Source: Lichenibacterium minor
GTDB taxonomy: Bacteria > Pseudomonadota > Alphaproteobacteria > Rhizobiales > Beijerinckiaceae
DNA length: 64,000 nt
Direction of reading: 5' to 3'
Assembly (NCBI RefSeq): GCF_004137685.1
Contig: NZ_QYBB01000008.1
Location: forward strand, 1 to 64,000
The position numbers and the translations under genes are program-made. The first letter of the stretch is position 1, and the number at the start of each line of letters is the position of its first letter. The notes below the pieces were generated by a model that was not told the DNA's origin, ran no database searches, and worked only from the letters and a program-made list of their open reading frames with translations. Positions 45,026-53,570 of this stretch are shown here, piece by piece.

Positions 45026-45122
45026 GGAGGAGAAACGCTCCCCGGTGGGACGTCCGGACTTCAAATCCGGGAAGGGCTGCGAGCCGGTTCTTGGTGGGTT
45101 CGACCCCCACTCTCTTCCGCCA
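45026..45122 (+). tRNA. selC: tRNA-Sec (UCA), selenocysteine
   Basis: A 97-base tRNA with the features of bacterial tRNA-Sec. The acceptor stem has 8 bp (GGAGGAGA with TCTCTTCC), discriminator G and encoded CCA. The anticodon stem CCGGA/TCCGG closes loop CTTCAAA with anticodon TCA at 45061-45063. There is a long variable arm and T-arm GTGGG/CCCAC with TTCGACC. It reads UGA as selenocysteine when SelB and a SECIS element are present. A possible -10 element TAGAAT lies at 44984-44989. No selA, selB or selenoprotein gene is seen in the window. Confidence 0.95.
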
Positions 45123-51557: not shown

Positions 51558-52193
51558 CTACCCCCTCGCGTCCGGGTCGGGAACCGCTTCCGCGCCGGCC
51601 GCGCGCCAGCTCGCGATGGGCAGCGGCCGCGCTTCGGGGCGCATGCGCCACAGCTCGCACAGCCGGTGCAGGCCTTCGCGCAGCCGCTCCAGCGCCAAGG
51701 CGTCGGCGGTTCGGGCGTGGGCGCTGTCGCCCACCAGGCCGCGCAGGCTCGCCACCGGCGCCCCGGCGATGACCACGCCCGCGACGTAGGGCATCAGCCG
51801 CGGCCCGACCGCGTCCACGGCGCGGCGGAACGCGTCGCGGTGGCGCTGGGCGGCTTCACCCGGGCCGCCCGAACCGCCGCCGCCCCCGTCCACGCAGGGC
51901 CGGGCGAGATCGACGGCCGTCAGCGCGCCGAGCCGCGACAGGTGCCAGTGCCGGCGCAGCCGGTCGCCGGCGTGCCACAGCGTCTCGTTGGCGGCGATGT
52001 CGAGCCGGTCGAGCAGGTTGCGGCTGCGTAGCGCGTCGAAGGGGTCGCCGATGCGGCGCACGCCGGCGCGGTCGACGGCCGCGTCGCCGTCCTCCCGCGC
52101 CCGGGCGAGGCGCTCCGGCGTGGCGTCCTCGTGCCCGCGCGCCACCGGGGCGGCCCCCGCGAGCGACACGGCGGAAACCTTGCGTTTCGGCAC
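51558..52193 (-). CDS. DUF6456-like protein, third gene of the switch operon
   Basis: A 211-residue protein. The stretch LLDRLDIAANETLWHAGDRLRRHWHLSRLGAL is followed by QRHRDAFRRAVDAVGPRLMPYVAGVVI and ADALALERLREGLHRLCELW. This matches the pattern of DUF6456 (winged-helix-like, found beside helix-turn-helix regulators in alphaproteobacteria). A GTG start at 52193 is used; it follows the preceding stop by 2 bases. No enzymatic residues are obvious. It may bind DNA or be a regulator subunit; function unknown. Confidence 0.6.
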   Translation of the reverse strand: MPKRKVSAVSLAGAAPVARGHEDATPERLARAREDGDAAVDRAGVRRIGDPFDALRSRNLLDRLDIAANETLWHAGDRLRRHWHLSRLGALTAVDLARPCVDGGGGGSGGPGEAAQRHRDAFRRAVDAVGPRLMPYVAGVVIAGAPVASLRGLVGDSAHARTADALALERLREGLHRLCELWRMRPEARPLPIASWRAAGAEAVPDPDARG

Positions 52194-52195
52194 GG

Positions 52196-52621
52196 TCAGG
52201 CCCCCCCGAAGACGGACGCGAGCGTCGGCCCGGCCGGTGCCGCATCCACGGGCCGGGGTTCGACGCCCAGGCGGCGCAGGGCCGCCCGCCCTTCCGGCAG
52301 GCTCGACACGGTGGCGTGGGGGATGTGCATGGCCCGGCAGCGGTCCGCCAGCGCCCGCGACGCCGGCCCGGGGTGGACGGGGTCGCGGTCGATGCGCAGC
52401 ACGGCCACGTGGCCCCGGGGCAGCAGCAGCGTGAGGGTGCGGGCCCCGGCGTCGTCCGCCGCCGGGGCGGGCGGGGCCGGGAGGGGCCACACGTCCGGCA
52501 GCCGGCCGGCCAGGAAGCGGCGCAGGTCCGCTTCCACCCGCGCGGGGTCGGGGAAGCGCCGCTCGTCGAGCCCGAAGGCGCCCCGGCGCCGCGGCGCCCG
52601 CTCGACGCGCGGGGCCGTCAC
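52196..52621 (-). CDS. VRR-NUC-like small protein, second gene of the switch operon
   Basis: A 141-residue protein. The N-terminus is basic and Pro-rich. The C-terminal half (RTLTLLLPRGHVAVLRIDRD, SRALADRCRAMHIPHATVSS, LPEGRAALRRLGVEPRP) follows the strand-helix-strand order of the last part of phage VRR-NUC domains. The catalytic D/E-x-K core is not clearly present. The GTG start overlaps the preceding stop (GTGA), so it is coupled to the GcrA-like gene. Nuclease activity is doubtful; the family call is tentative. Confidence 0.55.
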   Translation of the reverse strand: MTAPRVERAPRRRGAFGLDERRFPDPARVEADLRRFLAGRLPDVWPLPAPPAPAADDAGARTLTLLLPRGHVAVLRIDRDPVHPGPASRALADRCRAMHIPHATVSSLPEGRAALRRLGVEPRPVDAAPAGPTLASVFGGA

Positions 52622-52866
52622 GCCCTGCCCCCGCGGCCGGCGGTCGCGGGCCCGGCGGTGCGGGCGTGCACGGCGCAATAGCTGCCGTGCGGCAGCCGCG
52701 TGCCGCCGCAGAAGACGAAACCCGCGTCGCCCGGCTCCCCCAGGGGCCAGCGGCATTCGTGGGGCGCGAGCGACGCCACGGCGGCGGCGGCAGGCGGGAA
52801 ATGGGGGAAGGCGGGCGCGAAGCCGCGTTCCCCGGCCAGGACCGGCGGTGACAGGACCATGGGCAT
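52618..52866 (-). CDS. GcrA-like mini-protein, first gene of the switch operon
   Basis: An 82-residue protein carrying only the C-terminal, zinc-ligand-like part of the GcrA family: PHECRWPLGEPGDAGFVFCG, then GTRLPHGSYCAVH (Cys/Cys/Cys/His). The N-terminal helix-turn-helix of full GcrA, which recognises methylated GANTC promoters with sigma70, is missing. It could act on sigma70 or on chromosomal GcrA. It is the first gene after the operator-controlled promoter. Small GcrA relatives are found in alphaproteobacterial prophages. The second ATG (52860) may be the true start. Confidence 0.65.
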   Translation of the reverse strand: MPMVLSPPVLAGERGFAPAFPHFPPAAAAVASLAPHECRWPLGEPGDAGFVFCGGTRLPHGSYCAVHARTAGPATAGRGGRA

Positions 52867-52926
52867 CCAACGTTTGCGGTGGGGATCGACGCTGCCGCCA
52901 CCCTGGACAGCTCGCCGTCGATGGCT

Positions 52927-52957
52927 ATGATATGCCCTATTAGGGCACAGTAGTCAA
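52927..52957 (-). promoter_or_regulatory. Near-consensus sigma70 promoter of the GcrA-like operon
   Basis: On the minus strand, TTGACT (52952-52957) and TATCAT (52927-52932) are separated by 19 bp. Both hexamers match five of six consensus bases. The spacer contains the operator palindrome at 52933-52947, so repressor binding would block it directly. Transcription would run into the GcrA-like gene. Confidence 0.65.
52933..52947. promoter_or_regulatory. Operator O1
   Basis: Perfect 15-bp palindrome TGCCCTA-T-TAGGGCA inside the spacer of the operon promoter. It shares the TGCCC...GGGC(A/T) core with O2. The centre-to-centre distance to O2 is 32 bp, about three helical turns. Confidence 0.75.
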
Positions 52958-52964
52958 GATGTTG

Positions 52965-52979
52965 TGCCCATTATGGGCT
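52965..52979. promoter_or_regulatory. Operator O2
   Basis: TGCCCAT-T-ATGGGCT, palindromic over its central 13 bp, lies 22 bp before the TTG start of the repressor gene. It covers the region expected for the repressor promoter, as for autorepression. Confidence 0.7.
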
Positions 52980-53000
52980 ACATTTGGCGGAGACGCGGCC

Positions 53001-53570
53001 TTGGCCAACAATCTGAGGATGCTGCGGGACGGCCGCGGCTGGACGCAGGGCGAGGCCGCGGCGGCGCTCGGCACCACGCGCAACCAGTACGTCAAGCTGG
53101 AAGGCGGCAGCCGTCGGCTGTCGGACAAATGGATCAAGCTCGCCAGCGACGCCTACGGGGTCGACCCGGGCGACGTGGTGACGGACCGCTCCGGCACCGT
53201 TCCGGTGGCGGGCTATGTCGGGGCCGGCACCGAGATGCACTTCTATTCGGAATGCCAGGGCCCGTTCGACGAGGCGCCGGCGCCCGAGGATGCGACGCCG
53301 CAGACGATCGCGGCCGAGATCCGCGGCCAAAGCCTCGGGCCGCTGTTCAACGGGTGGCGGGTCTACTTCGACGACCGGCGCGAGGCCGTGACGGACGACC
53401 TCATCGGGCGGCTCTGCGTCGTGGGGCTGGCGGACGGCCGCGTGCTCGTGAAGCAGGTGCTGCGCGGCAAGGCCGAGGGCCGCTTCGAACTGCACGGCCA
53501 GTTCGGCGAGCCCGTGCTCGACGCCGACGTCGCCTGGGCGGCGCGGGTGAAGAGCATGATGCCGGGGTGA
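53001..53570 (+). CDS. XRE/S24-type phage-like repressor
   Basis: A 189-residue regulator. The N-terminal XRE helix-turn-helix (NLRMLRDGRGWTQGEAAAAL, GTTRNQYVKLEGGSRRLSDK) recognises DNA. After the linker VPVAGYVGAGTEM comes an S24/LexA-like domain with the candidate Ser in RGQSLGPLFNGW and Lys in VLVKQVLRG, so a self-cleavage dyad is possible. The TTG start has GGAGA 7 bases upstream. The frame is open to ATG 52959, but that start would lie inside operator O2. It is divergent from the GcrA-like operon. It converges on the next gene across a small hairpin. Confidence 0.88.
   Translation: MANNLRMLRDGRGWTQGEAAAALGTTRNQYVKLEGGSRRLSDKWIKLASDAYGVDPGDVVTDRSGTVPVAGYVGAGTEMHFYSECQGPFDEAPAPEDATPQTIAAEIRGQSLGPLFNGWRVYFDDRREAVTDDLIGRLCVVGLADGRVLVKQVLRGKAEGRFELHGQFGEPVLDADVAWAARVKSMMPG

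Follow-up and report, generated by a model that had tools for sequence, protein, structure and literature searches.

The 64,000-nucleotide stretch of Lichenibacterium minor analysed here (contig NZ_QYBB01000008.1, positions 1 to 64,000; the window) carries a compact four-gene module at positions 51558-53570, in which an XRE/S24 repressor is divergent to an operon of three minus-strand genes, tightly packed such that neighbours overlap or abut. This arrangement, proposed in an earlier sequence-only reading, is confirmed by the open reading frames (ORFs) and domain matches. The module, located on contig C188 of the window's genome (G000), is very probably a phage-derived switch that has been kept by the host. 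It comprises the following features:

51558..52193, minus strand: phage-type DUF6456 protein with a GTG start at 52193 (match at the PF20057 threshold, structure model and tree)
52196..52621, minus strand: degenerate protein of VRR-NUC fold (predicted fold, Pfam matches of orthologues and residue alignment)
52618..52866, minus strand: mini-GcrA, sigma70-interacting domain only (PF07750, E 1.1e-13; match to PDB 5YIX)
52904..52931, plus strand: rightward promoter-like site for the repressor, TGGACA - 16 bp - TATGAT (one site found; shuffle mean 0.0)
52927..52957, minus strand: leftward promoter-like site, TTGACT (52957-52952) - 19 bp - TATCAT (52932-52927) (read by sequence; layout common to relatives)
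52933..52947, no strand: predicted operator O1, TGCCCTATTAGGGCA, within the spacer of the operon promoter
52965..52979, no strand: predicted operator O2, TGCCCATTATGGGCT, upstream of the repressor start
53001..53570, plus strand: S24/XRE repressor, the ORF of which opens with an ATG at 52959 (HTH_31, E 2.4e-11; S24 scores below the Pfam cut-off)

The same gene order was sought in relatives within a set of 41 genomes, and the four genes are present in identical order in all six genomes of the clade (G000-G005, Lichenibacterium and relatives). None of the four genes has an internal stop in any of the six genomes; tblastn overlooked the VRR gene of L028, the reading frame of which is open on inspection. 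The repressor has matches in 16 of the 41 genomes at E 1e-3, with an identity of at least 50% in eight genomes, namely the six clade members, G010 and G022. Flanking genes are common to G000 and G001 and, by eye, to G003 and G004, and therefore speak for vertical inheritance there. The ratio of nonsynonymous to synonymous substitution rates (dN/dS, by NG86), calculated chiefly among G000, G001 and G002, stays below 1 in all genes and pairs computed. Among these three genomes, constraint is strongest on the S24 repressor (0.15-0.28), and the values are 0.35-0.42 for the DUF6456 protein, 0.29-0.61 for the VRR protein and 0.45-0.54 for mini-GcrA. G003 against G004 gave 0.08-0.42 with saturated dS, and a neighbouring glycosyltransferase, compared between G000 and G001 only, gave 0.20.

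The absence of adjoining phage structural genes, claimed for the window, is borne out: Cro, integrase, replication and structural genes were not seen around the module in the window or in five relatives (L024-L028), where the flanks, labelled mostly by eye, are host-like instead. With ~5 kb around the module being host-like in the window and the five relatives, the edge of an intact prophage was rejected. A full-text literature search found no paper naming this four-gene set in the text available, in agreement with the earlier statement that no described system has it.

The repressor possesses an XRE DNA-binding and S24-like architecture, with the helix-turn-helix match above its cut-off, the S24 match below, and the S24 residues aligned. 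Its start is probably the TTG at 53001 and not the ATG at 52959, because the conserved N-terminus M/V/L-ANNL aligns there. Self-cleaving S24 repressors are characterized by an A-G dipeptide, a serine and a lysine. A-G, Ser111 and Lys151 are kept in all eight aligned repressors, and in a wider set of 49 repressors the counts are 45 for A, 48 for G, 48 for S and 45 for K. Judged from its residues, the repressor is compatible with damage inducibility by self-cleavage.

O1 and O2 are matched palindromes of the TGCCCA-N3-TGGGCA type with a start-to-start distance of 32 bp, exactly the spacing that the sequence-only reading had given. A search with TGCCCNWWWNGGGCW at no more than one mismatch yielded five strand-matches in the window, four of which are O1 and O2 (shuffle mean 0.58; none of 100 shuffles reaches five), and the two palindromes exceed chance expectation in the window. 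O2 lies upstream of the likely repressor start, as had been proposed, and O1 indeed fills the TTGACT/TATCAT spacer; however, to call this promoter near-consensus was generous, because its spacer is 19 bp and the usual length is 16-18 bp. The rightward promoter-like site overlaps the -10 region of the leftward promoter, so that O1 could serve both promoters. The layout of TTGAC, 4 nt and operator is seen in 12 of 14 hand-picked loci (six modules, three family relatives, one phage and four of 35 viral loci), among which the operator is degenerate in L164 and L172; the layout is missing in the modules L027 and L028. Conservation of the palindromes in relatives holds for part of the clade: they are clear in four of the six genomes, but G004 keeps only half and those of G003 are degenerate.

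The strict form TGCCCNWWWNGGGCA has a single site in the G000 assembly, which is the module site (the reversed-pattern control also gives one). G001, G002 and G004 have one, two and one strict sites, respectively, all in the module, compared to four in G005, two of them in the module, and two in G003, none in the module; the reversed-pattern control gives 0, 0, 1, 0 and 1 in these five genomes, in the order G001, G002, G004, G005 and G003. The repressor is not favoured as the controller of a global regulon, as far as these site counts suggest. The two exact operator-like sites of G005 beyond the module are at G005:C125:150324 and G005:C147:213155. At one mismatch, G000 has 34 sites for TGCCCANNNTGGGCA and 18 for its reversed form, and the pattern outnumbers this control in most genomes examined, e.g. 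63 against 7 in G029.

A phage origin of the module is well supported. Ten phage records match the repressor, and the best annotated match is Mesorhizobium phage vB_MseS-P1 (PP232116.1), with 47% identity over 99%. The divergent early operon of this phage encodes a 106-residue GcrA that lacks the N-terminal domain. Its CI/LexA-type immunity region resembles the module in repressor family, divergent early operon, C-terminal-only GcrA and TTGAC-N4-operator layout, with a degenerate operator in the phage. The arrangement of a CI-type switch, in which an S24 repressor faces a divergent operon whose promoter is overlapped by operators, is found in the module (L027 and L028 lack this layout); compared to the immunity regions of temperate phages, the module lacks adjoining Cro, CII, replication, integrase and structural genes and has host-like flanks. 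Among 35 repressor loci from IMG/VR, five have a divergently oriented GcrA match, and the strict TTGAC-operator layout also occurs in five (L165-L169, the closest ones). L165 has the same operators as L029, and L167 and L168 the same as L030; each set may represent the same prophage. At another locus, L031:8467-9270 (G008), a repressor of this type stands opposite a weak match to the N-terminal part of GcrA (PF07750 positions 2-54, E 0.038, below cut-off), the half complementary to that of the window, and this locus also carries a DUF6362 protein.

The first operon gene was thought to carry only the C-terminal part of GcrA, and both the PF07750 match and the match to the sigma-binding domain of 5YIX confirm this. 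The match covers profile positions 100-145 of 155, and a mini-GcrA profile of six members matches Caulobacter crescentus GcrA (PDB 5YIX) in its sigma-interacting domain, with an E value of 1.7e-17. Compared to GcrA (PDB 5YIX and 7YE1), mini-GcrA shares the sigma-interacting domain but lacks the N-terminal DNA-binding domain and the linker, its match starting only at position 100 of the profile. In the available text of PMC7403470, the DNA-binding domain is assigned to residues 1-45 and the sigma-interacting domain, which binds sigma region 2, to residues 108-173. Mini-GcrA scores below the NCBIfam GcrA cut-off, and the same genome has a full-length GcrA (G000:C177). Short GcrA proteins, mostly of 70-90 residues, are numerous in the profile search, and PF07750 also matches in a Sulfolobus control genome.

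For the second operon gene, the proposed VRR-NUC likeness holds at the level of predicted fold: PDB 4QBN is the top PDB match in Foldseek, with a probability of 0.98 but an E value of 0.08. The window protein had no match in the Pfam search, and VRR_NUC matched two of the six orthologues (best E 2.8e-5). Catalysis by VRR-NUC nucleases depends on an E-x-K motif together with the aspartate of a P-D motif. The module protein differs from these nucleases in both: the glutamate of E-x-K, the loss of which the sequence-only reading missed, is kept in one of 40 aligned homologues (P0200), and the aspartate is also lost in the window protein. An active VRR nuclease was rejected on these residues, and the protein looks catalytically dead. 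The profile search found 82 VRR homologues; the VRR profile had no confirmed match in IMG/VR, and neither the profile nor one VRR homologue gave anything convincing against solved structures.

The DUF6456 protein scores 25.3 bits against a PF20057 cut-off of 26.3, and 26.6 bits together with its neighbours in frame. The best 120 of 354 DUF6456-type clusters all have E values of 7.4e-72 or better. In its structure model, the helical core is confident (mean predicted local distance difference test score of 76.6), with no Foldseek match to the PDB under E 0.001 and one match in BFVD under 1e-3, a protein without a name (7.0e-5); phage proteins named DUF6456 in BFVD gave 1.1e-3 and 0.16. Against solved structures the DUF6456 profile found nothing convincing, the clade profile had no confirmed match in IMG/VR, and two queries had no matches in GenBank phages. 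Seven viral loci carry a phage-type DUF6456, of which L202, L203 and L205 also have the repressor family upstream and L206 has a GcrA match. In L203, the sole one annotated in full and the basis of this placement, the order is repressor, replication initiator, DUF6362-like protein (below cut-off), DUF6456-type protein, integrase, methyltransferase, HNH, and small and large terminase, in which DUF6456 appears to occupy the place of a late-gene activator. DUF6456 is the annotation domain of GafA homologues, according to the available text of PMC9638019 and PMC9765227. As the domain of GafA and GafZ, which activate gene transfer agents (GTAs), it points to a late-gene activator switch, a connection that the sequence-only reading did not make, and the DUF6456 protein probably activates late genes.

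The closest functional parallel is the RogA-GafYZ system of C. crescentus. The available text of PMC11150451, PMC9632790 and PMC13236601 reports that Caulobacter GafZ is an antiterminator, that GafY contacts RpoD, and that RogA, a LexA-like repressor of gafY and gafZ, lacks key cleavage residues. As described in part in PMC9632790 and PMC11150451, RogA-GafYZ shares with the module an XRE and S24-like repressor at a core promoter with inverted repeats (repressor binding being predicted in the module), an operon ending in a DUF6456/GafZ-family protein, and a partner that contacts sigma70, which is GafY there and predicted to be mini-GcrA here. By the same partial descriptions, the two differ in several respects. 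RogA, compared by description only, lacks the cleavage residues, whereas the module repressor keeps A-G, Ser and Lys; the repeats are GGAA-N4-TTCC for RogA and TGCCCA-N3-TGGGCA for the module; rogA (CCNA_00080) is apart from gafYZ (CCNA_01111/01112), whereas the module repressor is divergent and adjacent; and the module has no GafY and a DUF6456 protein that is phage-type. We do not class the module as a RogA-GafYZ member, because the residue state of RogA and a canonical GafYZ pair were looked for and not found. By analogy, the module may nevertheless work like the RogA-GafYZ switch.

Two sister genera carry related arrangements. A strong GafZ-type PF20057 match is absent from all six clade genomes, all ten g43 genomes and all four g49 genomes tested, but present in six of six other genomes in the search that covered g43 and g49; the PF20057 cut-off is passed by 207 of 298 family genomes. 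Weak matches to part of PF20057 occur elsewhere in three g43 genomes. In g43, nine of the ten loci fetched have an S24 gene that diverges from a small gene and a DUF6456 gene; the small gene of L108 has no Pfam match, and none of the g49 GTA-like genes matched within the fetched stretches. In g49, S24 and DUF6456 lie directly beside terminase, portal and then GTA_TIM in four of four loci (L116/L129 of G140, which supplied the queries, L117/L145, L122/L146 and L119/L147), and all four share one flank gene. Pfam matches identify terminase, portal, S24, DUF6456 (below cut-off) and GTA_TIM; the labels for capsid, small terminase, tail and flank genes were given by eye, and Pfam has no match for the gene that separates S24 from DUF6456. 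The g49 cluster is GTA-like and of a second type, with its own divergent S24 and DUF6456 at one end, and is a candidate for an unrecognised GTA family.

Taken as a whole, the module may be a domesticated temperate-phage switch whose derepressed DUF6456 protein turns on phage-derived GTA-like late genes in trans, a reading to which we assign an even balance of doubt and belief. The repressor would bind both operators and repress the operon and itself, until it is inactivated through self-cleavage, e.g. after DNA damage. Mini-GcrA would then bind sigma70 region 2 and aid RNA polymerase at the target promoter, in a role like that of GafY in Caulobacter, with the dead VRR-NUC protein acting as a structural or DNA-binding partner only; the DUF6456 protein would bind the late promoter as an activator or, like GafZ, an antiterminator. 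That GTA-like genes are the present target is possible, though somewhat doubtful. A bolder version appears rather unlikely: a GTA-class activator switch assembled anew from another phage, with a free GcrA sigma2-binding domain for GafY, a dead VRR-NUC scaffold, a phage-type DUF6456 antiterminator acting in trans and a self-cleaving S24 repressor, which replaced GafYZ/RogA in the clade and, in variant forms, in the two sister genera.

Several observations weigh against a GTA-directed switch. By dN/dS, mini-GcrA (0.45-0.54) and the VRR protein (up to 0.61) are loosely constrained, the operators of G003 are degenerate, and 30 of the 35 viral repressor loci lack the strict layout. The module DUF6456 reaches the Pfam model only at threshold (25-27 bits), and its identity as an orthologous GafZ was rejected, since it falls in a separate clade with a support of 1.00, in a tree that retained 15 of the 29 loci L032-L060 after filtering, left out 14 and represents the module side by a hand-picked sample. 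No DnaA-like or GafY-like family was found in the three operon proteins. The absence of GafZ alone does not mean replacement, because genera such as g4, g10 and g37 show neither GafZ nor the module-type protein among the matches listed. As to the structural genes, a GTA-type terminase was found in none of the six clade genomes; GTA_TIM is present in G002-G005 and was not found in G000 or G001, and a GTA-like capsid is present in G000, G003, G004 and G005 and was not found in G001 or G002. The GTA-like structural genes of G002 are reduced to tail genes, and the G000 cluster is broken, with PIN and Phd/YefM-type genes (L148:17330-18168) replacing the tail genes beyond the capsid and a contig end on the other side. 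In G001 the module is retained and its dN/dS values are below 1, yet GTA_TIM, a GTA-type terminase and a GTA-like capsid were all not found there. The module either has another target or outlives its target.

In the other clade genomes, the clusters L126 (G003), L142 (G005) and L143 (G004) contain a Phage_portal_3 portal, a capsid and GTA_TIM, the Pfam portal match being in L143; they may be GTA-like clusters in which the head module has been replaced. A large opposite-strand ORF without a PHROG match (L126:2685-4766) lies inside the G003 cluster.

Domesticated superinfection immunity, in which a host-kept repressor silences incoming temperate phages with the same operator class while the operon serves as a sensor or arises as a by-product, would agree with the operator and promoter layout shared by prophages and viral contigs (e.g. 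L029/L165 and L166) and with the repressor being the most constrained of the four genes among G000, G001 and G002. However, it leaves the ordered retention of the three operon genes in six of six genomes unexplained and does not account for the S24 and DUF6456 pairs beside the g49 GTA-like cluster, and we consider it unlikely. A decaying prophage remnant with no present function is still less probable: it draws on the structural genes that are broken in G000, tail-only in G002 and not found in G001, on the degenerate G003 operators and on the loose dN/dS of two genes, but all four genes are free of internal stops throughout the clade, every dN/dS computed is below 1, and the best 120 of 354 DUF6456-type clusters stand at 7.4e-72 or better. 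Interference with the cell cycle, with damage-released mini-GcrA competing with full-length GcrA for sigma70 and dampening GcrA/CcrM-dependent transcription, is the least probable and not favoured, for although the mini-protein is a sigma-interacting domain without the DNA-binding domain (limits from the available text of PMC7403470) and a full-length GcrA is present in G000 (C177), it gives the conserved VRR-NUC and DUF6456 proteins no role, the phage homologue of mini-GcrA sits in an early operon, and mini-GcrA is loosely constrained among the four.

If the domesticated activator switch proves true, GTA control would have been captured from temperate phages more than once, with S24 and DUF6456 as a constant core and the middle genes swapped. 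GTA induction would be tied to repressor self-cleavage, for which RogA reportedly lacks the residues, and the sigma-binding domain of GcrA would be a portable transcription factor. An S24 gene divergent to DUF6456 provides a simple search handle for unrecognised GTA-like systems.

Elsewhere in the window, a selenocysteine tRNA gene is located at 45026-45118 (ARAGORN; Rfam RF01852, 65.8 bits).

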